From Bryum argenteum (Eukaryota > Streptophyta > Bryopsida > Bryales > Bryaceae), in NCBI GenBank assembly GCA_037043015.1, contig CM073329.1, positions 7,394,648 to 7,458,647 on the forward strand: a stretch of DNA of 64,000 nucleotides, read 5' to 3'. The stretch's first letter is position 1. Each line of letters opens with the position of its first letter. Position numbers and translations under genes: made by a program. Below the pieces are notes generated by a model. The model was not told the DNA's origin. It saw only the letters and a program-made list of their open reading frames with translations, and made no database searches. Of this stretch, positions 3,035 to 54,100 are shown one piece after another.

Positions 3035-3724
3035 ATTGTGTTAAACACTGTTTTTAGAGACGTCATCATATAGAGTACTCGAATGCGTCACTATTAACGT
3101 AGTATAACGCAAGAAGTACCCTATCACATACTTGTCACATATATGTAGCCTTTATGCCTTATGCTACTAAGCAATACTTGCGACTTTGTATCAGTGGCTA
3201 ATTTTCCATCTAATACAACAAAAGCACTGACCAGCTTCATGTTGCACTCCATTTCGTGTATGTTTCTGTCAGAGTGTGTTATTTTTGACGTTGCATTTAC
3301 TTTATCGATTGTGTCATATAACGTCACTTTTGACGTTTTCAATTCCGTCATGTTGTGTCATGTAACGTCACTTTGACACGAGACCCTGTTTCTATTGACA
3401 CATAACTCGATAACGCGAATGTCACCTTACGTCTAAAGATATCATCCGAAACGCGTTAAAATAAATGACATTTGTATTTAACAATGTTAAACAACGACAA
3501 ATTTAACGTCGGTGACGCATTCTACAAAGACGTCACTCTGCGTCAACGTTAATACAATATAAATATATAACAAATATCTAAATTCTAGTGCAAAATTATA
3601 CGCAAAATCCAAGATCATGCCACGTGTCTAATTCTCAGCCATTAAGAATCTCCCACATCAACAAATTCTTCATCCATCCAAAACGACGGAGGAGTGTGCA
3701 CTTCATAACCTACGTGGAAATTAA

Positions 3725-12985: not shown

Positions 12986-12991
12986 ACAGAT

Positions 12992-22138: not shown

Positions 22139-22164
22139 GGGTGAAAGCATGCTAGGGTGGCACA
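22139..22164 (+). repeat. Left TIR of element 1
   Basis: Twenty-six bases match the right end exactly in inverted orientation. The GGGTGG-like repeat inside it (AGGGTGGCACA) is shared with element 3. Confidence 0.9.
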
Positions 22165-22689
22165 CTTACGGCCACCCTAAAGTACTTGGACTGTACTTAA
22201 AGTCAACGCCCTTCAATTCCGGATTTGCTTGAAGTACTGTGGGTACTCCCCTTACTAATTCAGGGTTTGGGCAGGCTGTTGAGTGTGCATGATTGCGCAA
22301 TCTACGGAGATCCAGCCACTTCATGCCATGAATAGATTTTGCCATCGATTTTATTTAGCCATCATTAACGGGCCTTGGCCGCCAAGTTCTCCTCACCGGT
22401 GACCGCCAGTCGATGTGACCACCTGACCGGTGACAGCCGGTGATCTTCTTTTCTCCCATGCGAGTGTGGGTGGAGCTGCATTTTCCTTGCTTTTGTCTGT
22501 GCGTTGCTTGTGTCTGAGGTGTGTTTCTGTATTGTCCCTGCGTATTGGCTTTGCGTGTGAGGTTTAGGGTCTTCGTGTACTGAGAGTGGTTGAGTTTGTT
22601 GTTGTTGGACGAGGTTTGTGCTGTCAGGTACGGGTTTGCATTGAGCTGTGAGTTTGAGCGTGAAAATCGAGCTTGAGTGAGCGGTGGCG

Positions 22690-22935
22690 GGCATTGAAGG
22701 TCTGAGCGGGGTGAATATTCAGCGTTGATTGAGGTTCGCTGTGTGCGTGTGAGGTTCGCTGTGTGCGTGTGAGGTTTAGCGAGTGCTTGTGAGGTTCGCT
22801 GTACATTGTAAAGAACCGCATTGTGCGTGTGAGGTTTGCTGTGATTGTGCGTGTGAGGTTTAGGGTAGCATTGTGTGCGTCTGAGGTGTGTGTGCGTCTG
22901 AGGTTTAGGGTAGCATTGTGTGCGTCTGAGCTCTC
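22690..22935. repeat. GTGTGCGTGTGAGGTTT-like repeats before gene A
   Basis: A degenerate array of GTGCGTGTGAGGTTYGCTGTG-type units (roughly 20-30 bp) precedes the start of gene A. It may be the leader or promoter of gene A; no TATA box stands out. Confidence 0.6.
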
Positions 22936-22992
22936 TAGCATTGTGTGCGCGGGAGGTTCGGGATCATTGTGAGGTGCGCGTTGTTGCGTGCG

Positions 22993-23763
22993 ATGGGTCG
23001 GATGAAGCAAACGGCCATTGATGGGAGAGGGAAGCCGGGTGCAGCGTCAAAAGCGAAGTCATCACCGACGAAGTCTGCCAAATCGAAGGAGGTGGCTGGC
23101 TCGTCAACTTCTAAGAAGGTAGGGGTGAAGGCAGCAACGAACAGAAAAGCAGACAATGTTGTTGAGGACGAGGTCGATGAGATGGAGGAGGACTGCAATA
23201 GCGATGAAGATGAAGACCTCGACGTGGAAGTGATTGACCTTGACTCAGCTATGAAGAAGTGCAAACCTCCCCCTTCCCTGATTCTTGCCCATGAGTGGAC
23301 TGAGAAATACGGCTTGGAGGGTACTGGAGAGAACCCGAAGCGCTTCCCCAAAGGTCACAAAACTGCAGAAGAGATGGCCAAAGTATTTGGCAAGCGATCG
23401 GGAAAGAAGGGCCGTAACGGGTTTAGGTGGCAGGACGTTACGAATGCGGAGATTATGGCCAGAGTTCGGAAGCTGCACCCGATCATTTATTCGCATGATC
23501 CTCTACGCATACCCTCGCATTTGAAGGTCAAATTTGCAGAAGGGATAGTTCATGAAAACCAGCACGGAATTGGATCTGTCAACTGGGCAGCCTTTGCTCA
23601 AGTCGTGAACAACACTCAGCGCACTACGCGATCCAAAAGGACAGCCAAGCTCGAGTACATGAAGGAGCAAGGCCTGTCTCCCGTGACGAAGGATGAGTTG
23701 AAGAGCTTGAAGCTGGAGCCCGGAGAACTTAGAAGATTCGAGCCTGCTGATGGCGCTAAAAAG
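22993..23763 (+). CDS. Gene A exon 1: H3-tail-like N-terminus and conserved unknown domain
   Basis: The start ATG (22993) has G at -3 and +4 and gives MGRMKQTA, five of seven residues identical to the histone H3 start ARTKQTA. A Lys/Ser/Ala-rich basic tail follows to residue 52, then an acidic stretch (54-84) ending in VEVIDLD, a SUMO-interacting-like motif. Residues 92-210 form a domain I do not recognise (PPPSL... EKYGLEG... NAEIMARVRKLHPIIYSH). Element 2 encodes a recognisable relative (NADVRNRINRIYSIVYQH) at about 46512-46690. The exon ends in phase 0 at GT (23764). An upstream in-frame ATG at 22945 is possible but has no support from element 2. Confidence 0.7.
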
Positions 23764-23890
23764 GTAGGTTGAATATTTGTTCACCGTTTGTGTATGTTTA
23801 CAGTTTTGTAAATTATGTGAGAATTTCCGCTCTTACATGAACTGTGTGCTGCCTACCTAAAGTGTTGATGTTGGAGTTTTGTGGTGGCAG

Positions 23891-24711
23891 GATATGTCTG
23901 AAGTATGCGGGAGTCGCATTCCCACCAAGCAAGAAGATGACCTTGGTTTGCGTACTGCTGAAAGAATTGCTCGTATAGGGGAGATGATCAGCCTTTTGAC
24001 ACTGGAAATAGCGAAGTGTAAGAGTGCTCTGTCTTGCATAAGCTCAAGAAGCAAGGCTGCCAAGAACCAGCTTCAAGCAACGGAGGCTAATCGAGACGAG
24101 CTAGAGGAGCAACTTGCTAGTTTGGAGTCGGAATTACAAGATGATCCTTCTGCTAAAGTTGAGAAAATAGTTGTGGAGCGGCTGAGGAAAAAAAACAATG
24201 CAAAGATGGATGCTGCTGCTGAGGAATATCGTGCTGCAGTCTCGGAGTTGGGAGCTGGTCGAGAGCACTCTGAAGTCGAAGCAACGACAGCTTACTGCCT
24301 TCAACGATGAGGCGCAGCACTTAAAATTTGGAGGGCGCCCATCAGGGATGCAGCCGTGGCCTTTGTTTTATGCGCGCAAGATTCCTTTAGTTGGCCCTGT
24401 AGTCCACTTAGCAGTTACTGTTTGTAGTCTGTGTGCCTTCCCTTTCCCAAATTTTGACATTATTGTAGCAAACTGTAAGCACCTTTATCACCCTTGGTGT
24501 GCATTGACTGTTTTTGGCAAAGGGAGAGGGACAGCTTGTGTGGAGAGGATGTGCCAGGGATTTGTGCACCCCAATTGGCACACAAGCTTCGGGTGGGGTA
24601 TTCCATCAGAGGAGTTGCAACAGCGGGCAACACAGTTTGACTTACATGGCGAGGCTCTTCGATTGAAGCACGATCGTGAGAACTTGGCGTTGCAGAAGGA
24701 TGAGGCTTTGG
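23891..24711 (+). pseudogene. Gene A exon 2: coiled coil and RING/PHD-like zinc finger, one frameshift
   Basis: The first part (to about 24249) is a long coiled coil with heptad-like Leu/Ala spacing and an ESELQDDP break. The frame then changes at a GGG run near 24249, and the coil continues in another frame. A Cys/His cluster follows (24423-24580): CxxC, then CKHLYHPWC, then two more Cys before VHPNWHTSFGW. The same cluster is readable in element 2 at 47510-47690 (CVVC... LYHPWWC... HPNWYKSFGF). The pattern suggests a treble-clef RING or PHD fold, perhaps for chromatin reading or ubiquitin-ligase-like contacts. The donor is at 24712. Confidence 0.6.
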
Positions 24712-25524
24712 GTAAGTCTTCCATGTCACGTTTTGTCTTCAGTGGTAAAGTGAATACATACTGTAGAGCGTGTTAGGGTTTTGTGTATTTAGAGTACAAG
24801 TGATTGCGTTGTAATGTGATCAGTGTAGTGATTTGCACTCAAGTGCTGTGCTAGAGAGAAGGAAGTAATGGAAAATGTGTACTTTGGATTCATAGTGTGA
24901 ATACTTAGTACTTAAAAAGTACTGTTTGGTAGTTAGTAGCTGCCACTCTGAATACTTTGTTACTACAAAGTCTACAGAAGAGGATGTATAGTAGTACTCA
25001 GTTTGTGATTAAGTAGTCGAAAGCATGCTCAAGTACTTTTCCATAGTAGGTTTGGTACTTCACTGAAGTATAGTGTGGTACTTTAGATATGGCTTCAGTA
25101 TGCTCTTCATGGAAAATCTGTACTTTGGATTCATGCTAAGTACTTAAAAAGTATTGTTTGGCTGTTAGTAGCTGCCACTCTGAATACTTTGTTACTACAA
25201 AGTCTACCCAACAGGATGTATAGTAGTACTGAGTTTGTGATTAAGTAGTCAAAGGCATGCTAAAGTACTCTTCAATAGTAGGTTTGGTACTTCACTGAAG
25301 TACATTGTGGTACTTCACTGAAGTACACTGTGGTACTTCAGATATTTCTTCAGTATGCTAGTAGTTGTGTGGTACTACTGTGCCTTTCTTTAGGTACAGA
25401 GTTCAGTCATGGTAGTAAGTAGTATTCTTTTACACCATTATGTGTACATTATTAGGTATAAGTTGTACATCTATGAGTATACTAAGCGTGGGTTATGCTT
25501 ATTGGCTATGAATCCATGTGTCAG
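24712..25524. other. Gene A intron with dense GTAC motifs
   Basis: This proposed intron joins phase 1 exons: G at 24711 plus AT at 25525 rebuilds an Asp codon. It holds about 20 GTAC tetramers, many as AAGTAC, AGTACT or GGTACTTCACTGAAGTAC, and contains an internal duplication of about 230 bp. Confidence 0.55.
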
Positions 25525-26890
25525 ATGGACAAAGGGAGCCAATTAAGCGTTGTGGCGGAACTAGCAGGGCGACGGGACAAGAAATGCCTACACCAACAAC
25601 CCCGGTGGTCACCAGCTCGGCCATAGCTGTACAAGAAGTAATCGATTTTGGGGAAGGAACTGAGGGTCCAAAGACGCTCGAAGAAGTTGTCTCCCCAACG
25701 TCTTTGGCTTCACCCGAGCCGCTCACACACCCAATTCCTCAGGTAGCACCTCAGGTGCCCACACTCCCAGAAGCTCTATGTGCACCACAGCTCGGCACAC
25801 TCCCAAGATTTGCAGCTTTGCCACAGTTGCCCACACTCCCACGACCAGTGTCTGTCACTACAGTACCAAGAGAGTCGCAGAGGCGTTTGGTTGTTTCCAA
25901 TTATGCAGGTTTGTGCCCTTCAATATTAGTTTGTGGATTCTTAGTGCAGTATGTTTTCAGTCGTGATTGCTTGGCTGAAATGTGGCTGTGGTGTTAGGAT
26001 TGCTGAGAGGCATTCCTAAACAGGACTCTGCCTCCGATGAAGACACTGCATCGTCAAAACGAGATGATGGTGATGGCTCAGACTCGGAGGTGAATAGTGA
26101 CGATGAAGGAGGGGATTCACCCCCATCAGAACCTTTAGTAACCCCCCTCCAGGAGCCAAAGTCAGTTGCACTACTTTGCACTTCCCCAGAAGAGTCTCGC
26201 AACATTGTGGGAATTAACCCAAGTCCTACGTTGACCACCGATAATGAAGCGGTGCATGCATCTGGTGTTAAGTATTGCCAAGGAGGCTGAGAAGCATATT
26301 GAAGGAAGCAACCAAGCAGTTGGCCAGGTTGATGCTGGAAGCAACGGGCCAAACTTGATGGAAATCGAGCGGGGCTGCAACGATGAGGATGTCCGTGATA
26401 AAGACGGAGAACTAGCAGTCCCTGCAGCTGCAGCGGAGAAGGGACCTGACGTGGAGCTTGCTCCTGTTTCCAAGGGCGCATTGGCAAAGGAGGACAACCG
26501 CTCGGCAACGATTCCCATTGATCAGCCAATATCAGTTGGCCAACAGCATGACATCCAGCCCTCCGTGATGGAGAGTGAAGGAGGTTCCCCGCTGACAATG
26601 GAAATTGATCCAGCTCCTCGGCCCGCGGAAGGCAACGTTGCGAGCATCCGGGCGAAGGAGTCCGAGATCTTTGGTCATGTACCAAAAAAGAAGCGAAAGA
26701 TGAAATCCGTGAATGAGGTGGAGGAAGAAGGAAGGCCGCATTTGTAAGAAAACTTCAAAGCCGGATGTGGAGGAGGAAAACCCGGCTGTAACCAAGATGA
26801 AGTCGGTAAATGAGGTGGAGGAAGAAGGCCCGGCTGCAACCAAGAAAAGTTCAAAGCGGGTGAGGAAGGGGAAGGGTGATAAACGATAGC
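25525..26890 (+). pseudogene. Gene A exons 3-4: Pro-rich and acidic linker with NLS
   Basis: Exon 3 (25525-25908) is rich in Pro, Thr and Leu, with LPTLP/LPQLPTLP-like repeats. Exon 4 opens at 25998 in matching phase with an acidic Ser/Asp/Glu stretch. The frame then shifts near 26275 and continues with VPKKKRKMK, a classical SV40-type nuclear localisation signal (26679-26702). The unit KMKSVNEVEEEG occurs twice (about 26696 and 26798), showing a local duplication, and a frameshift lies between the repeats. The tail KKSSKRVRKGKGDKR is strongly basic and ends at TAG 26887-26889. Low-complexity content means homology tests will be weak here. Confidence 0.5.
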
Positions 26891-27029
26891 ACTACTTTGT
26901 ATGTATGAATTACAAGTAGATAGTTGTAGAATGTGGTAATTGTATATTGTGATAAGTTTGGAACTTATCATTGGTTTTGCATATATATATATTTGAACTA
27001 CAGTTCATTTTTTGTTCTGCTAATCGCAG

Positions 27030-28052
27030 ATAACAAACAATGATGAATCCAAAAATACTAGTAGATCTGAAATGGTTGTTATCGATAATGAGAAAGAAAG
27101 CAGCCGTAACTGCCCCGGCAAGGATTATCCAGTGGATGTGGCAGCTTCCTCCAACATGGATTCCGCATATGGAGCTGACGGTGTCTTGCAGGGTGTTGAT
27201 GGTAGTGAGAATTCAGAGGTATGATTTCTATACCCTTTACACCTTGTTTGTTACACCTTGAATTTGATCTGGGCAGAATGGCTTCACTTTATATGATGTT
27301 TGTTTTGAAGGTGTGCGAGTACAAGCACTGTGAATCCGGTGAAGGGTCATTTGCATGTCGGAGCAAACAGAGTCGTGGGATCATCGGGATGATTGATTAT
27401 TTGTGGAGGACATGTCCCAAGGAAATTTATCTTGAATGCTACATCACTTGTGTCGTGTCGTGGTAGTTGTAGAAACATGCTTGTTCAAAAAGGTCTGAGT
27501 TTGAATTTGGATTTGTTCTGGACTAATGGTAGGGGCTGGGGACTTAAGACATTGGACGCTATTGAAAAAGGTCAATTTGTTGTTGAATATCATGGTGAAA
27601 TATGTACACACGCAGAAACCATGAGGAGGGCGGCAGTGCAACCAAGCTTGGACGTTGACTACAGAGCAGATGCGGCCAACAACGACAAGACATCGTTAAG
27701 TCTAGACCCACTTTTGTATGGTAACGTTTCCCGTTTTTTGAATCACAGGTGTGTGGATGCTAATCTGGTGGACATGCCGGTAAAGACTGATCATAGTGAT
27801 CCACAACTATATTATGTAGCCCTTTTTGCAATCAGAAACATCGAGCCGTATGAGGAGCTCACGTGGGTAAGGCTTCTAATCACAAGTTTAAGGTTTCCTT
27901 CACTTTTTTTCTTTCATGATTGTATTAGGGGCTGATTGTAATGTGGGCTCTTTGCCTTGCAGGACTATAGAACATCATTCCAGGATAACAACACTGGAGC
28001 ATGCCTTTGCGGTAGTTTCAATTGTCGATACCCCCAAGGCATGGATTACTAA
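27030..28052 (+). pseudogene. Gene A SET module, element 1 (SUVR/SUV39-like)
   Basis: A pre-SET start is visible as CPGKDYPVDV (27030-27218 exon), then a Cys cluster (CEYKHC). CGGHVPRKFI aligns with the GH..RKFI segment of plant SUVR proteins, and SCRGSCRNMLVQKGL with the last pre-SET cysteines. The SET core has RGWGL, VVEYHGE, GNVSRFLNHRC, ANL and EELTWDY. The post-SET CLCGSFNCR lies in the last exon, joined across a phase 0 intron (27867-27962). A TGA sits just before the CGGH frame (27390-27392), and two small indels near 27431 and 27460 scramble two pre-SET cysteines. The SET core itself is open. Family members transfer methyl groups to H3K9; activity of this copy is doubtful. Confidence 0.75.
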
Positions 28053-29005
28053 CGGTAGATAGTGTACATATTATGACCATGGTAGATAGTGTACATATTA
28101 TGACCAGACTTGATACTCAAACATTGTACATAGCATAACCAGACTTCGCTTATCAAACATCTTACTTCTCTTCCCCTTCAGCATGGAAGTTTAATGAAAT
28201 CCTTTACATATCTCATGCACTTGGCTTTATCAGCTTCTCATGACCAAATTCTCGTTGATGTTCGATTCTTACCCATTGAGGAACATCACAGTTATGTCCT
28301 CTTACTTTGTGCGTGAAAGCAAGTGGAATGTGTAGTACTCTAGGTACACAGGCAGTACTCATACTTAGGTAGTCGCGACATCACATTGAGAAACATCACA
28401 GTTATGTCCTCTCACTTTGTGCGTGGCAAGTGGAATGTGTAGTACTCTAGGTACACAATGAGTACTTGTGGGTAGTCGCGAATACTATAAAAGTACATGT
28501 AGACTACTAATGTACTCGTGGGTTCATTATGAATACTAGCAGTACAAATGACTTAGATAGTTGAAGGTCTTGGTTGAAGGACTTAAAAACTTCAATACGG
28601 GTGCCAGAGAATTTTCTCATTGCCTTAAAATGCGTCACAAGACTACGGAAGTACAACAAACAGGGGAGTGACAATTACCACAATTACACTTGCAAGAGTA
28701 CAGACTCAAGAGACTTTAGATATGACAAAGTTGGAAACTCAAATGAGTTCAGCCAAGTGAAAATTGGGTATTCAAAATACCAGTAGTGTACATGATGTAT
28801 ACAAATCTGTACTCAGAGTACTCGGACAGTACGTTAACAAGCTGCTGAGCAAGGTAGTCTTTCACCTAAGGCCTTGAATCATCTGTTGCCCACCACACTG
28901 ACAAGCTTTGCTCAATCATTTCCCGGGTTTCCGCTGTCATTTTATAAACTGATGTGTTGCCCCTAACAGTGTGTTGTGCAAGTATCATTGGAAACTTGAT
29001 GACCT
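28053..29005. other. Intergenic region between convergent genes A and B, element 1
   Basis: No coding sequence is convincing. A block around 28260-28340 (ACCCATTGAGGAACATCACA...GTGCGTG) is partly repeated at 28380-28450. GTAC motifs are frequent (28330-28830). Short ORFs such as 28574-28786 have no support. Confidence 0.5.
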
Positions 29006-32000
29006 TTAACAAGATGAGGACGAATATGTCTTTGGAAGAGATTTGTCAAGCAAAACAAATGTGTTAGAGCCTCTCCCGTACTTTTGGTAGTACATGCCAA
29101 CTATGGCTTCATCACCTACATCAAACTCCTCTCCCCAGGGGCACAAAAAGTCTTGTTGGAGCTCAAACTTAGGTTTAATACATTGAAGGACATAAAAGTC
29201 TACGCCTTCATCGTTACCCTCAGGAGCTGGAATCATGAAATTGTCCCCAATTTGGACAAGACTTGAGTTGTCGGCTTCCACACCACCATGTACCCAACTC
29301 TCTGGTTCATCATGAGATTCGATTTGCTCCTGTACTGCTGCCACGTTGAATGGTCTTAGACGCACAACCCTCCGATCCGGGACATGCGATTGTTGCTCTC
29401 AACTCACCCACTCCTGATTGATGCAAGGGGCACAAAAACACGACAAATCGCGAACCATCAAAAGGGTGGAGTCAGTCAGGGAACATCCAAAAATGCTATG
29501 AAATTGACGAGATCCAAGAATCGTTCTGCACTTCCACTCGTTTGATCTGTCCACCTCCTCCGGGCCAATGTGCCAAAATACACGAGATATTGGCACTTCA
29601 TTCCTCACATCAGATGAACCAATAACACGGTGGGAAAACTTGGCCTTTAAAAACTCCACACACCTTTGGTGTGCATTAGTGGTCGTCTTCCGGATGTTGA
29701 ATTTGATGCTGACGCAAAGCCCTCTTTACAACTGCTCCAGCCCCGTCCCACTCTCCTGCATCAAAAGTACTCATTAGATATCAAAAGTACAAAAAGTACC
29801 TAACATGTACTCAGAATACTTGAAGAACACCCAGTGCCAAACCCCCTTTCAAGGTAACCAGATGAGCTAAACGGATGAGCAAAAACACGCTGGAGAGACA
29901 CACCGTACATAAGTCATTGACATGAACAAAGATATAACTAATGACACTTAATCATCAAGAATTACTCTCCTGCATCAGATGTACTCATCAGGTACTCAAA
30001 GTATAAAAGTATAGTTTCTATACTCAGAGCACTCGAAGTACACCCTATTGCCACAGAGCCTTTGATCCGAATGAGCAACTACACGATGGAACACTAGATA
30101 TGAACAAATAAAAAATGAATGACTGTCAATCATCAAGTATTAAAAGAAGGAACACTCTAAGAATGGGAGAGATACCTTTTCCATGACCACTGCCGAAAAA
30201 ATTCCATCGCATTTGGCAGCCTGTAAGACCCGGGTACCGCGCCACGAAGTACATTGCCCGAGACCCTTTAAATTGTGAAGAGCACCCGTCACTGTACACC
30301 CAATGCTCATGTGGCCTATACCCTGCAGCCACCAACCAATCCCAGTGCAAAAGGAGACAATATTGGACAAACAATGAATCGTGTTTTTGTCATCATTTGA
30401 TGTAATAGTGAGTGTGCTTTACTATGCCACCATCCTCACCTAATTTGTTGGCGGCAACTTAAAGAAAGTAATGTGCACAAGAATGGATATTGAATTACTA
30501 AACCAAGTGCATCGATTGAACCTCATTTTGTATAGCAAAGGTGTAATTCTCGGCAAAGTCTATGTGAGAAATCAAAACACCGGGAGGCACATTCTCCATC
30601 ATTTTTCTGCACTCACCATCTTGCCAATTTGCAATGAAATTATGAGTCACAAATGATTGCACCTTCTTTCTAAAATACAAAACAAAGTCACACTGGGATG
30701 TTTCCTTGAACACCTCATGTATGCGTTTTTTCTCATAGCCAGTGTCTTCATGAACTCCCACTACCTTCATTTCAAAGCATCTCCATTTTACCAACAGGTT
30801 AGTAGCAAGAGACAATTCTTGGGGACAAAACATCACCTTTGAAACACCACAAGAGTTGCACTCTCCCATTAAACATGCAAGTTTATGCCACTTATCGAGG
30901 TCATCCTTTGGACAAACACATGCATGCCAAAGCGCTGAGATGCAATCATATGTGACAGTCGTTGCACAACAACCATCACTACCTAAACCGCAAACCTCAC
31001 AAGCACATGTGCATCCTATGTGACAATGATTACCCTTAGAAGTATCCCTAAAGGTATTCAAAGCTTCCCTTAACAAGTCCATTTCAACATGATTTACACA
31101 ACAACAACTATTACGGTCTTTCAAGGTCTTTACATACCAAGGCTTCAAATATTCAAAACGCACGCTTTATACGGCACTCAGGATGCGCTTCTCTAAACGC
31201 TTGAAACAATTGGGCCTACCAGATCACACAACATTGGCAGTCTTAGTACATCACGCAGTACTTTGAGTACCGTCAAGAGTGTAAATGAACTACAAATATA
31301 CATTAAGTACACCATTGCAATGACAAGGTCGGTCTAAAAGCGATGGAAGGGGTACTCGAGAATATCATATTTGGATAGATGTGTTCCAAACACAAGACAA
31401 TAGAGTACTCAAACATTAACTACTACTACTTCTTTAGTACAGTTATACTAAATATCATACCTACTCTACCCAAGACACTTTCGACCCATGAAATTCTGTA
31501 CACAAACTCTGACCGGTTGTACCTAAAGCACACATGAATGACCCAAAGCTACTTAATGACTACCAAGTCTGTACTCATATTACTATTTTCATACCTCAAA
31601 GTAATTAAAAGTACTAAGTTGTAGTCATACAAGTTTCCAACTACAAAGCACTACCTTATATGACTGAGAGTACAGTGACATCTATCACGAATATTGCAGA
31701 GCCTCAATAACTATTTTCACAACTACAACATATGTACTACTAAGCTTGTTAAAATTCGTTTGTAAAGAAAATTACTACCACAGTGTACCTTCAATACCAC
31801 TTAGCCACGATCTTCATACATCGGCACACACACATGGGCACTTGCAACTGTTTAAAGTGAAGGAGCCAACAAAATTGAGCAGTTGTAATTTGGGAGGGAT
31901 AGAATTGCGACTCACCTGGGTATCTGTGAGATAGTGAGTAGCATGCACAACATACTCACTCCTCCCTAATCGTTTCCGAGTCACATCCTTCTTATTCGGT

Positions 32001-33157
32001 GAGACACGAGATCTTCCATGCCACCATGCACGCACCGTTTCTTTCACATATTCTGACAACCCCGCACGCTTTTTCCGCTCCAGTAGCTTGTATTGTGCCT
32101 GCACATCATTACAACCACTTCTCCTCTCTACAGCATTCATGATATTCCGAGGATGCACCTGCACAACCACAACAAATTCCATCAAAGACGTTTTCTGATG
32201 ATGCACATGTTCAACATCCCAAATCCTTGTCACTACACATTTTACAAACCACCCTACACAACAGTTGTAGACATGGACAGCAAATAGACATGATCATATG
32301 ATACCATTGCAACCCTACCACTGACCTTCAAAGATTCAACAAAGAGTTTGAGGCCTCATGGAGGCTGACGGTGTGAATATGCGATCAAACGTAACTATAA
32401 TGCTGTAATGGGCACAATAAATCGATTACAACAATTATTCAAAGGCAGCTTTAGCCACCAGAAACCCGTCCCCACCGCCTCTCGTAACGCACGTATACAA
32501 GCGATCAATTCGGTAACTCACCTTATAATTTGCTCGAGTCTCCTATAATAGGACCTTAAAACCCTAAGAAGAAATCCTAAGTTGAAGACGGGATAGAAAT
32601 TGGAAAGCAACGCACTGCAGCACCCTCGACGATCTCTCGAGTTCCTTCAATGCCGTCACCACGTTGCGTCCGAGAGAACCCCTTCCTCGCCAAAAATTCC
32701 TTAGAATGTGCGCCCTTCACCGCCCGTAGTTCGTTCGGTAACTCTTCGAGGAAAGTGTGTATGGATCTTGCTTGAAGGCCGTGGGTAATAGGACGGCAAA
32801 GAGAGGCCAAATTGTGTCGTGATTCAATATCTTTTCAATGATCGTCCTCCTACAGCTCGGGGTCTTGCACTCCTGTAGCTCCTCCACAATACAACGAGCT
32901 AATTTGTTCGACTTCCTACTACTTGTGCGGTCAGGCATTGCACTAGTTTCAATCGAACCCTCCACAGAACACCGAAGTGTTTGTACATTCTCCGCAGATG
33001 CCGCTAGCCTCGCTCTGTACGCCTGCATTCGTAGTCGAGATTGTTCTGCGTGCACCTGCCGTCGAAGTTCAGCCGCTGCTGCAGCTGGAGCTCGAACTTG
33101 TGGACCAGGTCGAATAACGCCATGCCGAGTACGCTCCCGATTGGCCTGATTACCCAT
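29006..33157 (-). pseudogene. Element 1 gene B: DDE-type transposase-like protein (broken)
   Basis: Exons run from 33157 (MGN start) through about 32570, 32233-31916, about 31200-30500, about 30420-30176 and 29755-29006. The motif order matches gene B of element 2: a Pro/Arg-rich N-terminus (GVIRPGPQ), RVSPNKKDVTRKRLG, a Cys cluster (CCCVNHVEMDLLREAL), HIDFAENYTF with the first Asp, QNEVQSMHL, WVYSDGCSSQFKG with the second Asp, FFGSGHGKG|EWDGAGAVVKRAL across an intron (29756-30175), and the C-terminal block RDLSCFCAPC and IGDNFMIPA. Frameshifts or stops lie near 32730, 31165, 30400 and 29690. HIDFAENY...SDG...HGKG..DG is, in my memory, typical of a widespread uncharacterised transposase-like family in animals; I infer an RNase H-fold transposase. 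Confidence 0.7.
32570..33157 (-). pseudogene. Gene B N-terminal exon, element 1
   Basis: The start MGNQANRERTR matches MGNARTQQRR of element 2, which fixes the start. An Arg/Ala/Gln-rich helix follows (RRQVHAEQSRLRMQAYRARL), then KLARCIVEELQ aligned with KIVQFIIEEFQ. The frame shifts near 32730 and the following segment aligns with SYRTELESLKIPTSKEKL of element 2. This part is probably a DNA-binding or dimerisation region. Confidence 0.55.
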
Positions 33158-34047
33158 CACCACAAACCCCACCTAAACCAACGCGAACGTCACGAATGTT
33201 CAGCTCAATTCTCAGAGATGCTGAAGCAGGTAACCCTAATCCAACGCGAACGTCTAAATTGACCAGAAAAGAAGCTAAATCGTAGAAACACCACACTCTC
33301 ATCCTTCCAGGAGATCTCCGTGTCAAGCGGAGCAAGACGACGTGCCCCATACATTGGATCCTTTCTAAATGCGGTTGAAGTTATTGTAAAGCCTGCAAGA
33401 GAAAGTGGAGGAAGCCTAATCCCGGAAACGCCGAAGGAGAAAGCCAGGAATTGCGCCTCCAGCTCCCACGAATCTTACTAAAATCGGAACGCTTAAGTAC
33501 TCGTAGTACTCCCAGTGTACTCATTCATGATTTTCCCGCACTTCCTGCGCATGGACCTTGGCGCCAAAAAATGGCTCGTCTTAAACCTACCAGACTATAG
33601 ATCAGTCTTCTCTATCCGATTGCAAAAAAAAAAATCAAATTTCATTTATTTTTGACTGAATTAAACCATGTCAATGGTTTTGCACCTTGACCGCTAAAAA
33701 TAGCAAGGAAAATTTGAGTTTTTTGGAGGTTTCTATGCACCATGAGAAGCCTTACACTATGCCCTTTCTATCCATATAATTTTTTGAGTACTTTGCAACT
33801 TAATTTTATCAAAAAGTGAGTACTTTGTGTGATTTTTACACACTGCGACGAAGTACCCTATACACCCCAAAGTGCAAATAAAGGAATGTTCCACCTATTT
33901 TTAGATAAAGTGATCAATAGATTTGGAATATTCATAATGTCTTCTACCATAATCTACAAAAACTTTAGTACTTCGGGAGGTGGAGGAATCCAAAAACGGC
34001 CTTTGAACATGCAAGTTCACAGTCACTTGGGACGGTAACGTACTTTT

Positions 34048-34073
34048 TGTGCCACCCTAGCATGCTTTCACCC
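34048..34073 (-). repeat. Right TIR of element 1
   Basis: Perfect inverted match to 22139-22164, followed by the TSD ATAA. Confidence 0.9.
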
Positions 34074-39056: not shown

Positions 39057-39059
39057 ATC

Positions 39060-45245: not shown

Positions 45246-45359
45246 ATTGTGTTGAACACTGTTTTTAGAGACGTCATCATATAGAGTACTTGAATGCGTC
45301 ACTATTGACGCAGATTTAACGCTAGCGCGTCACTTTGACGTAGTATAACGCAAGAAGTA

Positions 45360-45381
45360 GGGTCCATGTACACTAAACCGG
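45360..45381 (+). repeat. Left TIR of element 2
   Basis: Twenty of 22 bases match the inverted right end; the TIR contains GTAC. Confidence 0.88.
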
Positions 45382-46341
45382 ACCCAAAATGGGCAAGTGT
45401 GGTAAGTATGTACTGTACATGTCATACATGAATATCCGGATCATCACGGTCGAGAAACGGACACGTGGTCTTTGTATGGCGGGGAAGATCGTTGGGGTGC
45501 TCGGTGGGTAGGGTTTGGTGAGCGTATTCGCGCGCTTTTTTCCTGATGCGCGTGTTTTTGAACTTTCCCCCCCCCCCGAGTCTGTCTCCCTCTCGCGAGT
45601 TGTCTCCCTCCTCGAGCTTTCTCCCTCCTCGTGAGCTTTCTCTCTCCTCCGGAGCTTTCGTATGCAAGTTTAGGGTTAAGGGTGCTCGGAGGCGGTGTTC
45701 GTGTGCAAGTGAAGGCTGCGCTTTTGGAGTGTGTAGTCTTCTGAGCGTGTTGGTGTGTAGTTTTCTGAGCGTGAGTGTGTGTAGTTGACGGTTGTTATTG
45801 TCGAGCGTGCCCGAGAGTGTGCCGTTTTCGCTCTCGCCTAATTATTGTGCTTTCCCGAGTTTCCCGAGTGTAGAAACCTGAGCGTTTAGTTTAGGGTTGT
45901 CATCAACGGGCTCCCGCAAGATGTAGATGGTTTTCGCAGGATGGTGCCATTCTTTGTGTTTTTGGGAAGCGGTGTAGTGGAGGAAAGTGAGTCCAAAGAT
46001 CGTTCGGGAGTCAAGTGCGGCAAGAAGAAGTCGGTGTCAAGTCTCCATTTTGAAGGTGAGATTGGTTAAGGTTTAGGGTGTTATGTATTGTCTTATTTGT
46101 GGCTTTTTGTGGCCTTCGTCTTGTTTCGTTGCTTCCACCGCCAAGTTCGTAGTTTTTGAGTTTTAGTTATTTGAAGTTTGCGAGTGGTGCGGTGCGAGGG
46201 GACAGGACAGAGCAGAGCGCGAGCAAAGATGGGAAGCGAAGGAGCTACCGTGCGGCGGCGGACGGCGATGAAGAGGTCGATTTGTCCTTAGCGCTGGACG
46301 ATGTAGAAGATAGGATTTCGGTCTTTGAGGAAAGGTAGGCC

Positions 46342-46690
46342 GCCCCGCCATACACCTTGGAGGACTTCCGCGACAAGTTTGGCTTGTCCATTGAAGGTAT
46401 CAACCTCCACAAAAGCAAGGATCTTGTAGGAAGTGCGCAATCGCTGCAGACCTTGTAGCGGTGTTTGGACCTCGAGAGAGGTAAGAGCGGTTTCTTTTTG
46501 GAGATTGCAAGAATGCCGACGTTAGGAACCGGATCAATAGAATCTACTCTATTGTGTACCAACATCCCCATGGACCCAAAAACAAGTTGATAGGCAAAGA
46601 CTTCGCTATAGGAATTGTCATTGATGTTGTAAAGAAGTTAGATGTAAGTCGGGCCACCTTCGCTTCTCAATCGAACAACAATCGTAGATA
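46342..46690 (+). pseudogene. Conserved unknown domain, element 2 copy
   Basis: YTLEDFRDKFGLSIEG aligns with the element 1 stretch around EWTEKYGLEG. After frame changes, NADVRNRINRIYSIVYQH and FAIGIVIDV align with NAEIMARVRKLHPIIYSH and FAEGIVHEN. Substitutions are mostly conservative, which suggests the domain was once under selection. I do not recognise the fold; a helical DNA-binding or protein-interaction domain is possible. Confidence 0.55.
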
Positions 46691-47484
46691 GCGTGGACAA
46701 AGAAGATGACCCCGCCCCCGCAAGAAAAGGCGAAACTCGCCCGTAAATCTTCGAGGAAGTGGCGAAGAAGAGGGCTTGGACGAGATGTTGCGGTACATTT
46801 ACATGCACCCATTCCATTTTGAGTTTAGGCTCGGCTTGATTTTTTGAGTTTAGGCTCGACTTGATTTTGAGTTTAGGCTCAGTTTGATATTTTAAGGGTT
46901 CACTTACGCAAGCTTGTTGATTTTCGTAGGGTCTCCCTATGGTGAAGAACGAGGTGTTGGTGCAGACATCTCGACACAACACTCCAAAGCAATGGTAGGC
47001 GGCGGAAGGCTTGGAGAACCGTGTGGCTTCATTAGCGACAAGAAAACCGAGATCTCCGAGCTATTGGTTGTCGTTGGGTTAGAGCTGCGCAGTGCATCAA
47101 GAAGGATGTGGGCGAAGCCATGAAGGAAAGGGACGTCATATGCCGTTCGGTGGACGACATGCGTATGGCCTTGCGCTCAATGGAGCGAGACATGTGAAGA
47201 ATGTCGATCCAAGATGGAGGCGAGAACTCGAAGGAGCGGAGAAGGTGAACCTCAAGATGACGCACGACTTCTACCGGTCTACGTTGATGAAGCAAGAAGT
47301 CTGAATTTGAGAAGATTTTAGCCGAGGAGAAGGTGAAGGTGAACAAACACCAATCTCTTTTGAAGAGGACTGAATTTTTTAGAGAGCCGTTAGCCTCTTT
47401 GACCCCAGATTGCATTCCCTCCACCGGGGTCAATCTAGTTTTCCTCTTCACCTCACCCTATCACCTCCTCCATTTCATCAGGCT

Positions 47485-47805
47485 TGAATGATGATGGTGT
47501 TATTGATGTCACTAATTGTGTGGTTTGTGATATGCCCTTCCCACTTAGTGACATCGTCGTTTGTAGTCAGAACACTGTACCACCCATGGTGGTGCGTGAT
47601 TACATGGTTTAAGGGTGCTTGGAAATGTAAAGAACAATCTTGTAACACCACAGTGTGCACCCTAATTGGTACAAAAGCTTCGGTTTTGTGGAGCCCCATC
47701 TTTGCCTTGCGCGGAGAAGGCCGAGGAATTGGATTGTGAGGTCTTTGCGGCAACAAGTGATATGTGAGAGAACCACAATCGCGAAGGGGAAACTTCCCGA
47801 CATTG
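47485..47805 (+). pseudogene. Zinc-finger segment, element 2 copy
   Basis: CVVCDMPFPLSDIVVC is followed, one frame over, by LYHPWWC, further Cys pairs, and HPNWYKSFGF. It shares PFP..DI, YHPW and HPNW..SFG with element 1. The donor GTGAGT lies at 47806. Confidence 0.55.
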
Positions 47806-48466
47806 GTGAGTTCACTTCCTCTCTTACTCTTATGCTATACAACCTCATGTACAGCTGGTTACTTTTTATTCATTTTTCAGATACATATAGTCGATGGGTA
47901 GAGTATGCTCGGGAGTGAGAAGGTGTGAATTGTTGAAGTAGATGTAGTTTTGTGGGGCAGAGTCTGGTTTAGTACTCCACGTGAGTACATGTGAGACTTC
48001 GAAACTGGCTTCAGTATTGACTTAGCTCTTTGCAAGTATATAACCTACGAACAAAAACTTTCAGACGTTTATGCTAGTACTTAGAGAATTGCAGTGAAGT
48101 ATATTTTTGTAACATGTACTAAAGAAACACACTTCGAGTAAGTGTTTGTACTTTGCTTACTGTACTCGAAGTGTTTGTGTACTCTGCGTGCGTTACTCGA
48201 AGTACTTTGTGTACCTCGAGTAAGAGTTTGTACTTTGCGCCAGTGCGCCACAGATGTGGTAATAGTATGATATACTACATCTTGTACTTGAGAGGTAAGT
48301 TTACATACCATATACAGCTTTTGTTAGTATAATGTACTATTGCACGAGTACCTTGATGACCTATTCCATACTATAGTGGTATATCATATTCGATTCGATG
48401 CCCGTCTTAATTCTTCTGGACCACTTTGATGCTTGAGCATTAAGCTTTATGCTGTTGGTTTTGCAG
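47806..48466. other. Intron of element 2 gene A with GTAC motifs
   Basis: TTG|GTGAGT to TTTTGCAG|GTTC. About a dozen GTAC tetramers occur in the second half, with ACTCGAAGTAC-like repeats. It sits in the same place as the GTAC-rich intron of element 1, after the zinc finger. Confidence 0.5.
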
Positions 48467-49450
48467 GTTCATCTCAACCATTGCCCTCCGGCTCTGGCTC
48501 CATTTGTACGGGAGTTTGGAGTCATGGAGAAGCTTGACCAAGCCGTGAATCCGCGATTCAAGGCGAGAATTGGCGATTCGAGAAGATCAAAGATCAAGGA
48601 CGCCGAAGATGACAAAGTGCGGGAATCTCACGACTACGATAGGGTGAAGAAAGATGCTCCCGAGACCTTGGGACAAGCGGATAGTCCTCTCACGGTTTAG
48701 TCCCAAGAGCTTTGGACGCCGATCCGGGATTAGGCGGTGGCGACAATGATTCGCTAGCACCCCATACGGCCATGAAGAGGGTCCCGACGCCGATTGTCAT
48801 TTGCCCCGACTTAGGAACGGAGATCGAGGATGTGGAGATGGAACCCATCCCAGCGGAAGAAAATGTGGGCGATGACGAGGGTGATCTTTGCACTAAGTGG
48901 TGGTCTTGAGTGCAGGCAAGCTAAATCCCAAGGAGATGGGAGCGGTTCGAAGGTTCTTTGAAAATCTTGGAGAGGTCGACCGAGATAGAGTTTTGGAAGA
49001 ATTGAGGCAGAGAGATTGCTGCATTGAAGGGACAGACTCGGATTCATCAAAGACCGATCGAGGAAATTGAGTCTCCATCGACTCCCGAGCCGAGCGAGCG
49101 TAAAGGCGTTGTAAGGAATGTACCACCGTTCGAGGTGTACCAACCTAATACCGCAGGCCCGTGAAAACAAGGAGCGTGGCGAACTTGCGCCCGATCCCAC
49201 GGTTTATACCCGTGCCAACTCGAAAACCGATAAAGTGCGGACGCGAGGTGATGGACTGCTACATATGTACCCCCACAAAAATCTCGTAGCGGACCGGAGA
49301 AGAGGCCCAAGGTAGATCCGCTTAAACCTTGACCCGAGCTAGAAGATGAAGAAATTGTGTCTTATCTTTGGGTGGTGATGCGCAGTCGCACCAACAAAGT
49401 CAAGCGACGTACAAGGTGAAGTTAGATTGAAGTAGTAGGGAGATACAGAA

Positions 49451-49458
<8 letters not shown>

Positions 49459-49492
<34 letters not shown>

Positions 49493-49655
49493 TCGTGACT
49501 AACAGGAGCCGCATGGAACAGGAGCCGTGACCCTGTGTAGCATTTCGGCCAGTGCTAGTTTTTATTTTTTATATTTTTTTTTATTCGTGACTAACATGAG
49601 GCGCATGTAACAGGAGCCGTGACCCTGTGTAGCATTTCGGCCAGGGCTAGCTAGT
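49459..49655. repeat. Poly-T tract and tandem duplication in element 2
   Basis: A run of over 30 T leads into TTATTCGTGACTAACAGGAG and about 55 further bases; a second, slightly diverged copy follows after another T-rich stretch (about 49576-49652). This lies in a presumed intron before the pre-SET exon. Confidence 0.8.
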
Positions 49656-49860
49656 TCTTAAGTAGAACCTTTGGCTTGTGTTATTTTCCCTTTTTTTTGG
49701 CATTGCCCTACCATCACAAGTTTATGGTGGCACTTCCAACATGTATGGATCGTTGAGGGTTTACCGCAATTAGGTGGCTCTCTTGGATAAATTATTGTTC
49801 ATTATTTTGTACATTGTAGCCTTGGGCATTCAATATGTTATTTGAACATCTCATGATCAG

Positions 49861-51337
49861 TTGATGCAGTATGAGACTCAAAAGAAAGATTCATGTGATC
49901 TTTCTGTCGGGATTGAGCAATGTCCTATTGACATACAGTTCAGAGAAGGCACAGAGCAGGGACCACCTCGATTTAAATATATGAAGTGTAGTGTGCGTCA
50001 TGGAAGTGCGGCTCTAAAATTGCCAGGATTTTCAAGGACGGTGAGTCCGCAAAAAGTTGTGTGGCGGTGGTGCCGGGAACGAAGAGGAGGCGGTGTTCGT
50101 GTGCAAGTCAAGATGGAATGCTTCCTCCATACGAAGCAAACGGTTTGCTTCACCAGCACTACATAGAGATGGTACTTGTACTCACAAATGCTGTTAATTC
50201 TAGAATTGGGAAATCTTATGTGTATGTTTGTTTCTTATAATGTGTTATTTGGATGACTAGGCAAGAAGAGAAAAACTTGGAGAAGAGGAGGATGTATACG
50301 AGTATTGCGAGGGGCCGAAGTGTTTGTATTTCGGTAAAAAACAAATGTGTGATGGCCATATTTCGCGTACTTTTTTGAACGAATGCTCACCCAATGTGGA
50401 TGTCGCCCAAACTGCTCAAACCGGGTGGTGCAATGAGGTCGACACGAAGACTACGAGTTGGTATAAATATGAAATCATGTTGGCATTCATATGCTTTTTT
50501 TTGTGAATGTGTTTGTTTTGAAAGTGAATTATAATGCCTTGTTGTGTGTTTGATTTTTGGACAAACCCAAAGAAACAGTGGGGTATTCGGACTTTGGAGG
50601 AACTTCCCAAAGGAGCGTTTGTCTTCGAATATGTGGGCCAAATTGTGAGTAACCAGGAGATGTCAACTCGGCCATTCCAAACCAAGTATGCGCTCACCTG
50701 GATTTAGATGCCGATTGGAGGTCCGAGATTTTGCTAACAGATGAAGAGGCCTTGTGTCTTGATGCAACGAAGTGTGGGAATGTCTCACGTTTCGTGAACC
50801 ATCGGTAAGAGTAGGAGTTCATGTTCTTCATAATACGGGTTTTGTGCACTACTGTATTAAGAAGGGATTGTGTGCTACTTGTGTGCATGCTTGCATGATG
50901 AATCGTTTTTTTTGCTCCACAGGTGTTATGACGCCAACCTTATTGACATTCCTGTGAAGATTGACACTATGGAATCACGATACTATCATGTGAGTTTGTA
51001 GCTCCAAGTTCCCATTGATGCATTGTTTTTTCTTTAACATTCATTTGATGCATTCTCAGTTTTCAGAAGAGCACCGGCCCACTAGGAACGCTGATGACAG
51101 GCCTCTGTTTGAGCTGTGTGTGAGCTCTGATGTTTGCTTGTGTGTGAGCAGGTAGCATTTTTTACAAAAGAAGAAGTGAAGGCGGGCGAGGAGCTAACCT
51201 GGGACTACGGCATGGATTTCTCCAAGAATCCTAAAACCGTATGTGGGTTTAGGTGTTGCTGCAATAGCATCTACTGCAGGGATACGGGTGGTGCTAGTCT
51301 TCCAGTCCCGGACATAACCGGCCATTCATGTGCCTGA
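49861..51337 (+). pseudogene. Gene A SET module, element 2 (SUVR/SUV39-like)
   Basis: The pre-SET begins DLSVGIEQCPIDI and PPRFKYM, followed in a second frame by RRRCSCASQDG and PPYEANGLL, then YEYCEGPKC, MCDGHISRTFLNEC and CGCRPNCSNRVVQ. These match the nine-cysteine pre-SET of SUV39-type enzymes and the GH..R.F spacing of plant SUVR proteins. The SET core has WGIRTLEELPKGAFVFEYVG, LDLDADWRSEILLTDEEALC, GNVSRFVNHR|CYDANLIDIPV and YYH|VAFFTKEEV with EELTWDYGMDF. The post-SET CCCNSIYCRD ends the protein. Introns fall within NHR|C and after YYH. LDADW....L.DEEALCLDAT is the SUVR signature I recall. Frameshifts and stops (near 50060, 50385, 50425, 50705) break the frame. Confidence 0.78.
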
Positions 51338-52186
51338 AGAAATACCTCAAGACCATATGTTTAAATGTTGTGCATAGTAGTCGCAGAATAATGTGTACAT
51401 GTAGCAATGTAGTTTAAAAGACCCTTGCAAAGTATGTGTATATGTACTTTTGATATGTACATTGGAAGAGTTTTATTAAACTCTGAGCTCCATCAAATAA
51501 TACAAATTATTGGGTTGACTTTTACTCTGTAGTGGGTGATCGCATGTTGATGTATATGAAAGTACTTAGAAAGTGGGTAGGAATGTGGCGGTATGTAATT
51601 ACACTTGTCGATGTATATTACTGTATTGCCATGGCCCGTTTGATTGACTGCCTCGTCATTTTTGGCGTAAAATGCAGTCACAGTAAAAAATTCAGTCACA
51701 ATAAAAAGTTCAGTAAAAAAGAATTATCCCATATTGTTCGGGAAGTTACCTCACGGGGTAAATAAGTACAGAAGTTAACCGGGGCCCTTTCGTCAGCAAG
51801 ACACCGAGATGTCCTTCAGATCGGGGACGAGAGAAATCATAAGGGGAAAGTACCTTGCCCTTGATGTGGGGGGGGGGGACCGGTTCTTGCATGACACAAT
51901 TGAATACCCAAACCGGAGGCAGTCCATGTTTGGGACTTTTTTTTTTTTTTCACTAACTGATTTTCTACAGTACCCCCATGTATGCTAGTATCATCATATC
52001 ATGCACCAAGTATATACAGGACTTTTTAAGTATACATCACCCATCGATAGAGTACATAAAGTATACTGATACACTAAAAGTATTTTACAGAATGCATTCA
52101 TACCCAAGAATGTAACCACATAGTATTACATACTCTATCATGAAGACGAAAAATCATTAAAAAGTTGTTATCAATTTAATCACACA
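51338..52186. other. Intergenic region between convergent genes A and B, element 2
   Basis: No gene is visible. It has a G run (51869-51878), a T run (51937-51950) and several GTAC motifs. The two genes end about 850 bp apart, as in element 1 (about 950 bp). Confidence 0.5.
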
Positions 52187-54097
52187 TCAGAACCCCTCAA
52201 GGCTCGTCCTAATGACTTCAATAGTTTCACTACTCAGCTGATAAACATGATCATCTCCTTTCACTCTATGAAGAGCAGGCACCATTGTGAACTTGCAGGC
52301 AAGAACTAAATCCGCATCAATGTAAGCAAGTTGGGAATTAGTCAAATACACATATGATTGCTCACTATTCCCCCACTTTTGATAGTAGGTACCTGCAATA
52401 ACGTGTTGTCCACGCTCGAACTCTCCACCCCACACGCAGGTGAAGCTCTCTCGCACAAGTTGTTTTTCTTTTTGGCATTGGAGAACATAGAACTCAACAC
52501 CTTCCCGACTGCCTTGGATCGCTCGAACAGCAAAATTGTCACCAATTTTCACCAAACCTCCAAGTGATTCATCATCAGATACGTAATCCCACGGCTCTTC
52601 TTCAGCAGAATTGCTTCCTTCTCCTGGACCATGTACCATTTGGTCCCTCACAAAAGTCACATTAGTAGGGGCTAGTTTCACAACCCTCCAAAACTTAACA
52701 TGTGATGAATTCTCACAAGATTGCCAGTCACTATCTATACATGGCGCACAATAGCAAGCAAGCTCTCTGACCATTAGCAATGTTGGGTCCGCTGGTGAGA
52801 CTGCGTGTATAGAATGAAAATTCCTTGAACCTGGGATTGTGTCACATCCATGTAAATGTGTCCTCTCCACATCATCAGGCTTGATGTTGTAAAAGTGTCT
52901 ATACGACACAGTTCTCTTGGATTGAAAAGAACTCGACACCAGGCTTGACATAGACTCCGTAAGGAATTCCACCACATCTTTGGCGTCTTGCAACCTCCTT
53001 GACGGGTTGTGAAGTTGCTCTGTTCGAAGAGCCCGCTTCACCACAGCTCCGGCTCCATCCCATTCCCCCTTTCCATGACCTGTCCCAAAGAAATTCCAAG
53101 TAATCTCACAAACCCCCGTTAGTCCAAGATAACGACTAACAAAGTACATAGATCTAGCCCTTTAAAGCGCGCGCCCCGCACACCCATCACTCCACACCCA
53201 ATGGCGAGAGGGGTTGACACCTTCAGATTTCATCCATGCCCAATGGAGAAGCAAACAATGCTGGACAAATAAAGTATCATGAGTGCGGTCATCCGAAATA
53301 TAGAAATGAGTGTCTTTCCTTACTTTACCTGTAGTCACATCCATGCGGTATGTGATGTGAACTAAGATGGTTACCTGTGAAGATTGCCAATGCATTGATT
53401 GAATTTCGTTTTGCATCTCAAAAGTATAATTTTCAGCAAAGTCTATATGAGACAACACGACATCATGAGGCAAAGTTTCCATACTTTTCCTGCATTGCAA
53501 ATCTTGCCACCTAGCAACAAAATTATGAGTCACAAATTTCTGCAATTTTGGCAACAAATACTGTATGAAGACATAGCAAGAAGTTTCTTTGAACACTTCC
53601 TTAATTTTCTTCCTGGGCTCCCCATTGTCAGTGTACCCAACCAATTCGTTCTCAAAACACCTCCATCTGAAGGTCCATGTCTCATTTGACCTTTCCAGAG
53701 GACAAATTGGGAGCTTGTTGGCACCACAATTACCGCACAACCCCATCAGACATTCAAGTTTGTGGAATTCATGAGTCTCTGCCTTCGGACAGACGATTTG
53801 CTCCCACAGTGAAGTCACCCCTTTAAAACTCTGTTCTGTTGCAGAACAACCCAATTCGGAAGTACTTATGCAAAGTGGACAATCACAACTGCAAGATAGG
53901 GAAGCATGTACTCCCTTATTGGAATTACGCATGTTGTTCATCCCTTCCCGGAGCAAGTCAATCTCTACGTGGTATTTGCAGCAGCAAACATTACGATCTT
54001 TGCACCTCTTTACAAAAAACGGCTTCAATCTCTTAAATGCGCTGAATCCTATTGTCTGATCTTCGTGCGCCATACGGAATCGAGAATGGAAAGAAGA
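52187..54097 (-). pseudogene. Element 2 gene B: transposase-like catalytic and C-terminal region (one in-frame stop)
   Basis: The reading frame is open from the acceptor at 54098-54100 to 52187 apart from one TAA (53162-53164) next to the second catalytic Asp. Motifs in order: Cys cluster CCCKYHVEIDLLREGM...CSCDCPLC; HIDFAENYTFEMQNEIQSMH with Asp codon 53441-53443; HWVWSDGCAG with Asp codon 53186-53188; NFFGTGHGKGEWDGAG with Glu codon 53063-53065. Asp-Asp spacing is about 85 residues and Asp-Glu about 41. The C-terminal part has a Cys motif (ELACYCAPC) and a block, LVKIGDNFAVRA...VEFYVLQC...GGEF, that resembles a small beta-barrel. I infer an RNase H-fold DDE transposase. It is colinear with gene B of element 1, which has an extra intron between HGKG and EWDG. 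Confidence 0.78.
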
Positions 54098-54100
54098 CTG

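Follow-up and report, generated by a model that had tools for sequence, protein, structure and literature searches.

Does a transposon of the moss Bryum argenteum carry a histone methyltransferase gene as a part of its own, or does the SET gene found between a pair of transposon ends belong to the host? The question is raised by a 64,000-nucleotide stretch of contig CM073329.1 (the window), in which a preliminary description had recognized one giant element, here named El1, with a SET gene and, convergent to it, a gene for a transposase. The analysis presented here found that the window contains a second, overlooked element, El2, which also has SET exons, and the two represent two families of a lineage of large, ~12-kb DNA transposons with 4-bp target-site duplications (TSDs). 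The best explanation for the whole of the evidence, to which we assign a probability of about 0.7, is a transposon lineage with a co-diverging SET gene of the SUVR1/2/4 type that would act as an element-borne methyltransferase.

El1 is a real and complete mobile element. A perfect 26-mer, GGGTGAAAGCATGCTAGGGTGGCACA, forms its terminal inverted repeat (TIR): the window has two exact, inverted copies of it, and no match was expected in 100 shuffles even when allowing three mismatches. ATAA flanks the element on both sides, as first reported for it. Copies were searched for in the window's own assembly (G000; 258.8 Mb, 25 contigs). Exact TIRs were found 12 times, six per direction (reversed control, 0), and end-to-end copies six times: in the window, on contig C2, on C5 (two simple copies and an enlarged one) and on C4, with one TIR of the C4 copy being imperfect, in addition to one end fragment of 648 bp. 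The enlarged copy (C5:9381537-9409381) has grown to 27.8 kb through inserts and has lost ~345 bp, with its pre-SET/SET exon remaining open. The five other long copies are 96.6-98.2% identical to the window copy over their main pieces, and the five copies with both TIRs exact are flanked by perfect TSDs that all differ (ATAA, AACA, TATC, TGGT and GTCA), with no obvious common target word among them. Elements of the El1 and El2 type would be expected to move by cut-and-paste.

El2, a diverged relative of El1, was located through a GC-skew profile and self-comparison of the window. It begins with GGGTCC and ends with CACCC, and a 16-mer of its TIR occurs 39 times in the assembly, versus once in the control. 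The main part of its transposase spans 639 residues, open except for one stop. Translated comparison pairs the transposases of the two elements at 44-77% identity (coding-frame pieces above 40 bits) and also their SET exons, with order and orientation unchanged, while the DNA itself retains little similarity. Coordinates for both elements, and for a paralogous site that lacks the El2 insertion, are collected in Table 1. A third related element end, GGGTGGAAGCACACGAGGGTGG..., resembling the El1 right TIR, lies at 8297-8731; the segment 8295-8731 is 67.6% identical to the rightmost 430 bp of El1.

Table 1. Features of El1, El2 and the empty site, in window coordinates.
Feature	Positions	Strand	Remarks
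El1	22139..34073		11,935 bp; based on TIRs, TSD and end-to-end genomic copies
El1 left TIR	22139..22164	+	26 bp
El1 right TIR	34048..34073	-	26 bp, identical to left arm
El1 left TSD ATAA	22135..22138
El1 right TSD ATAA	34074..34077
El1 gene 1	22993..26889	+	approximate exons 22993-23763, 23894-24262, 24261-24710, 25524-25907, 25997-26284, 26280-26744, 26794-26889; frame-broken here
El1 gene 2 (SET)	27030..28052	+	approximate exons 27030-27218, 27311-27461, 27456-27866, 27963-28052
El1 transposase (gene 3)	29006..33157	-	pieces 29006-29398, 29399-29725, 30126-30389, 30498-31166, 31814-32293; N-terminal exon ~32577-33157, placed by resemblance to the C6 copy
El2	45360..57407		12,048 bp; diverged El1 relative, layout alike
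El2 left TIR	45360..45391	+	27/32 positions match right arm
El2 right TIR	57376..57407	-
El2 left TSD AGTA	45356..45359
El2 right TSD AGTA	57408..57411
El2 gene 1 remnant	46500..47700	+	N-terminal domain and RING-like part recognizable, degenerate; compared with El1 by eye, no statistic
El2 SET remnant	50280..51340	+	pre-SET ~50280-50446; SET ~50575-50805, 50923-50990, 51152-51340; degenerate
El2 transposase	52187..55326	-	52187-54106 (interrupted by one stop), 54778-55326
Paralogous empty site, without the El2 insertion	3109..3127		single AGTA

The association between the SET gene and the transposase was assessed at two levels. First, bounded copies were defined by pairing adjacent opposite TIRs at most 50 kb apart, yielding 16 copies: 11 of El2 (seven of 10.8-12.2 kb and four of 18.8-43.8 kb) and five of El1 (four of 11.8-11.9 kb and one of 27.8 kb). 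A transposase match lies inside all 16 of these copies and a SET match inside 15. Second, the matches to two SET and two transposase queries were merged into genomic places. Since scoring covered a subset of the candidates in each search (150 of 290, 150 of 320, 69 of 560 and 150 of 340), the resulting counts are lower bounds: at least 174 SET places, host genes included, and at least 163 transposase places. A SET match lies within 5 kb of 118 of the 163 transposase places and within 15 kb of 125, and all 125 linked pairs are arranged tail-to-tail; conversely, 126 of the 174 SET places have a transposase match within 15 kb. Random placement yielded a mean of 3.9 linked places and a maximum of 11 over 1000 trials, and an earlier, smaller count had found 34 of 66 places linked, every one of them convergently. 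These data support the SET gene as a standing part of the mobile element. The search for a SET gene between the same TIRs elsewhere in the genome, named beforehand as the refuting test, found it in other copies and in many related families.

The gene in question was recognized through a match to the SET domain (PF00856, E 4.3e-15) on the open reading frame (ORF) 27393-27935. The pre-SET/SET/post-SET module proposed for it is confirmed, the exons on either side containing readable pre-SET and post-SET cysteines; in the window copy, the pre-SET exon carries a frame break relative to a sister copy, and the post-SET cysteines are present both in El1 and in the C6 copy. When the three parts were typed as a composite, the closest solved structures were SETMAR, SUV39H2 and EHMT1/2 (best E 1.2e-32). 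P0125, a row of metagenomic origin grouping with the transposon SETs, exceeds the cut-off for both PF00856 and PF05033, and pre-SET is weak in P0105. The best named relatives are the plant SUVR1 and SUVR4, with SUVR4 or SUVR4-like proteins at 44-48% identity. The residues of three sets of motifs, which we take to be those needed for catalysis, are kept in nearly all transposon rows: G 47/51, W 51/52 and G 48/52; N 50/52, H 51/52 and C 49/51; and ELT 52/52. Gene 2 reads as a SUVR1/2/4-type SET gene with a pre-SET, SET and post-SET module, which narrows the SUVR-like placement that had rightly been suggested for it.

In order to place the transposon SETs among plant SET proteins, an IQ-TREE phylogeny was inferred from 50 rows, including 27 of the 52 available transposon rows. 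The host was represented by an exon pair of its own SUVR gene, a locus separate from the elements (L119, C2:7294270-7295000), read through the intron with the intron columns trimmed. Transposon SETs and SUVR1/2/4 form one clade (99/97), apart from rows of the SUVH, EHMT and SETDB1 types. Within it, flowering-plant SUVRs group with L119 (99/96), and every transposon SET used falls outside that group, on several branches. That the elements captured their SET gene recently from the host SUVR is consequently unsupported: the transposon SETs are not recent copies of L119, and therefore either the capture is old or the genes evolved fast. A single clade of all transposon SETs was not rejected by the approximately unbiased test (p-AU 0.519 and 0.215 in two analyses), and it is not seen in the unconstrained trees (0% of 200 bootstrap trees in the second analysis).

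The SET gene has also diverged in step with the transposase. For the 27 linked pairs having both sequences fetched, SET and transposase distances are strongly correlated (Mantel r 0.912), with none of 9999 permutations reaching this value (highest 0.264); the transposase cores of those rows differ on average at 42% of sites. The ratio of nonsynonymous to synonymous divergence (dN/dS) was computed for 30 open SET exons from 37 loci examined, a choice of open exons that biases the ratio somewhat towards constraint. Among 45 between-family pairs, the 10 with measurable dS gave dN/dS values of 0.07-0.18, the other 35 being saturated at synonymous sites, and within-family pairs at dS 0.26-0.31 gave 0.10-0.17. 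The SET gene therefore appears to be under purifying selection between families.

The two genes accompanying SET were characterized in turn. Gene 1 encodes, in order, an N-terminal domain, a coiled coil, a Cys/His cluster and a charged tail. The cluster resembles the Pfam RING domain at E 5e-4 in El1 and 0.09 in the related locus L056, both below cut-off. In the copies read, gene 1 lies upstream of SET in the same orientation. Since a stop after the basic tail closes gene 1 in El1 (26887-26889), the C6 copy and two SET-less relatives, SET is read as a separate gene 2 of ~260-290 residues, so that each element probably comprises three genes: gene 1, the SET gene and the transposase. Of the single gene assumed in the preliminary description, the SET module thus stands and the unity probably does not. 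A build as one long RING-SET fusion gene was also considered and was dropped on account of the same stop; no such protein appeared among eight matches to a composite query.

The convergent gene is confirmed as a transposase by 96 homologous proteins found with the El2 version and by the RNase-H-like integrase core predicted for its fold. The homologues include proteins from the moss Ceratodon purpureus (P0018) and the liverwort Calypogeia fissa (P0080) and, more distantly, from a limpet (Patella) and a leafhopper (Homalodisca; P0088, P0092); a EukProt transcript (P0076) is a relative with 40% identity over 66%. These relatives suggest a wide transposase family without a Pfam name. Pattern matches in GTDB genomes and IMG/VR included no confirmed relative. 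Searches of Pfam, NCBIfam and PDB sequences with the transposase proteins returned nothing above the Pfam cut-off for a family. No Harbinger transposase domain was detected at E 1 or below in five family proteins, a missing Pfam match being no proof of absence. Harbinger elements duplicate 3 bp of target, and the 4-bp TSDs of El1 and El2 also set them apart from the HarbingerS elements considered below. They differ likewise from MuDR, with TSDs of 7-12 bp (PMC10741241). Sola elements, in contrast, have a 4-bp TSD and a DDD-type transposase, and Sola1 is reported from the moss Physcomitrella (PMC10741241, PMC9033089). Compared by description only, El1 and El2 resemble Sola in TSD length, size range, presence in a moss and perhaps a DDD-type transposase, and differ in that a SET gene is not mentioned for Sola in the accessible text of those two sources. 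Judged by the TSD, the predicted fold and this description, the transposase lineage is apparently Sola-like.

Self-silencing, protection of the element's DNA, steering of integration and competition with host silencing had been put forward beforehand as possible functions. How a SET gene might serve such an element can be formulated as follows. The element itself would supply the SET protein, a histone lysine methyltransferase that would be active in the nucleus and work in trans on the chromatin of element copies, with H3K9 as the most likely substrate by analogy with plant SUVR4. It would change the H3K9 methylation level on element nucleosomes, uncoupled from DNA methylation, and the host loop between H3K9me2 and CHG methylation would be weakened for the time that the transposase needs to be expressed and do its work. 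This counter-silencing role is the mechanism we prefer, tentatively and at less than even odds. SUVR4 converts H3K9me1 to higher states in vitro (PMC7218100), the SRA domain found in SUVH enzymes is missing from SUVRs (PMC3063831), H3K9me3 was proposed in 2026 to be permissive in Arabidopsis seed germination (PMC13017857), and transposon-encoded anti-silencing factors provide precedents (PMC12730594).

Several observations weigh against an element-borne methyltransferase, or against this role for it. The direction of the SET effect is a guess, since a writer of a mark that usually goes with silencing is an awkward anti-silencing tool, and the conserved motifs do not guarantee activity, because SUVR1 and SUVR2, two of three plant members of the group, showed none in vitro (PMC7218100). 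A scan for WIYLD, the ubiquitin-binding domain of SUVR4, detected it in the control P0116 and in neither P0105 nor P0125, the two transposon-type SET proteins covered, both exon-derived or fragmentary. Very recent pairs, with few changes, show dN/dS values of 0.84 (the El1 pair), 0.81 and 2.14, and the window's own copies are decayed, El1 being frame-broken in gene 1 and SET and El2 degenerate. Foldseek alone, run on the transposase model, returned no match at E 0.001 or better. Moreover, a SET match is lacking at 38 transposase places; three of these were read over 8 kb, and no recognizable SET was found in any: L056 (C8:12731200-12739200) holds a transposase and gene 1, L058 (C2) a transposase and a diverged gene 1, and L057 (C6) an open transposase with neither SET nor gene 1. 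To judge from these loci, the SET gene is not indispensable to the lineage.

The distribution of SET over the transposase tree helps to interpret these relatives. In a FastTree analysis of transposase cores, the 28 SET-linked rows all belong to a single group of 43 rows (support 0.99), which in IQ-TREE, with three distant rows dropped, received an SH-like approximate likelihood-ratio support of 92 and is not starred. L057 and L058 lie outside this group, whereas L056 lies deep inside it together with four near-copies, which were not read. Two changes in SET presence suffice for the 28 SET-linked rows and the three relatives directly read as SET-less; nine are required if 15 further rows in which SET was not detected are counted as lacking it. 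Such non-detection overstates absence, because at least one such place, C10:7858370, initially taken as SET-less, was afterwards found to have a SET match within 2 kb. The simplest reading of this tree is one gain of SET at the base of the group and one loss, although by itself the tree does not distinguish a gain from a loss; the L056 family has apparently lost the gene. Single capture is accordingly the simplest reading of the transposase tree, and is not proven by the SET tree.

Other roles for the SET gene have to be set against counter-silencing. Under self-restraint, which we consider somewhat unlikely, SET would act in trans, placing a repressive mark at H3K9 of element copies and so limiting the damage done by high copy number or hiding the copies from stronger host silencing. 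SUVR4 and SUVR5 reportedly deposit H3K9me2/me3 (PMC7218100), and the purifying selection on SET in a lineage of many copies fits this role, but a trans-acting self-repressor is, by reasoning, hard to select among copies that share their transposase in trans. SET might instead, perhaps with the RING-like protein, methylate the transposase, the gene 1 product or target nucleosomes and thereby guide integration or complex assembly. The joint divergence of SET and transposase and the invariably convergent arrangement of their genes would agree with such a partnership; an apparently SET-less family that has nonetheless multiplied (L056 as read, and four near-identical transposase rows with SET undetected) and the lack of an obvious common word among the five El1 TSDs speak against it, and we regard it as quite unlikely. 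Transposons commonly capture fragments of host genes, and SET could accordingly be a roleless passenger, as its absence from the three relatives read and the weak constraint on very recent copies might suggest. The retention of SET, with its motifs conserved, across families whose transposase cores differ so widely argues against this, and the between-family dN/dS values contradict it in its simple form, making it very improbable. That SET is a host gene into which an unrelated transposon inserted is virtually ruled out, given that it lies inside TIRs at independent sites and that the host SUVR gene is a different locus, elsewhere and grouping with flowering-plant SUVRs.

Counter-silencing can also be joined to the history of the lineage in a bolder form, unlikely to hold as a whole. 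A lineage of bryophyte transposons would have acquired its SUVR-type H3K9 methyltransferase in a single capture, at an early stage of land-plant evolution, adding it to an older RING-like gene; the pair would shift H3K9 on the element's own nucleosomes out of the host H3K9me2/CHG loop, and in the host genome of today transposon-linked SUVR-type SETs would far outnumber host SUVRs.

The preliminary description knew of no superfamily pairing a transposase with a SET gene. Such genes are, however, already known in DNA transposons: SET histone lysine methyltransferase genes have been reported in HarbingerS and MuDR elements of Phytophthora (Kojima and Jurka 2014, via PMC12730594). These resemble El1 and El2 in being DNA transposons with a SET histone methyltransferase gene. 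They belong to other transposase superfamilies and to oomycete hosts, whereas El1 and El2 have 4-bp TSDs and transposases that, where scanned, match no Pfam family above cut-off; relative to HarbingerS, known to us by description only, El1 and El2 may differ in their plant SUVR1/2/4-type SET and in the additional RING-like gene. A literature search for a SET-bearing Sola or moss transposon, covering mostly open papers in their accessible parts, returned only HarbingerS and MuDR. Epigenetic factors presumed to aid escape from silencing are also encoded by other transposons, namely TET/JBP dioxygenases by fungal ones and a regulator of their own silencing by plant Vandal elements (PMC12730594), but TET/JBP acts on methylated DNA, and the gene in El1 and El2 is of the histone methyltransferase type. 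SETMAR (Metnase) is a host fusion gene, as opposed to two separate genes in a mobile, multicopy element, and among plant proteins the SUVR4 group contains the closest named relatives of gene 2, with the transposon SETs branching outside the clade of host and flowering-plant SUVRs. What is new, to judge from that search, is a SUVR-type gene in an apparently Sola-like moss lineage, kept across many families, with SET-less comparators and a RING-like gene.

The window contains further repeats around the two elements. Beside El1, at 34694-35173 on the reverse strand, lies a multicopy sequence with an ORF of ~160 amino acids, rich in Lys, Leu and Val and with a start that is hydrophobic by eye, for which a Pfam match was not found; repeats of it, 83-93% identical, occur near 12748-14093, 17507-18927, 37955-39296 and 62615-63995. 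Three pairs of long repeats (10396-14854 and 37198-41656; 1-2719 and 8828-11545; 5904-8270 and 59501-61851) are 95-98% identical, two of them inverted, which suggests that transposition or segmental duplication took place recently around both elements.

Transposons with epigenetic erasers or anti-silencing proteins are already known. If a SUVR-type writer has indeed been kept on a transposon for so long, part of the host's silencing vocabulary would have become a component of the parasite. A single genome holds many SET-bearing families, at least one apparent SET loss and outer lineages in which no SET was seen, and because these natural controls coexist, the benefit that a histone methyltransferase brings to a transposon can be tested directly. 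Counts of SET genes in bryophyte genomes may, moreover, be inflated by transposons.

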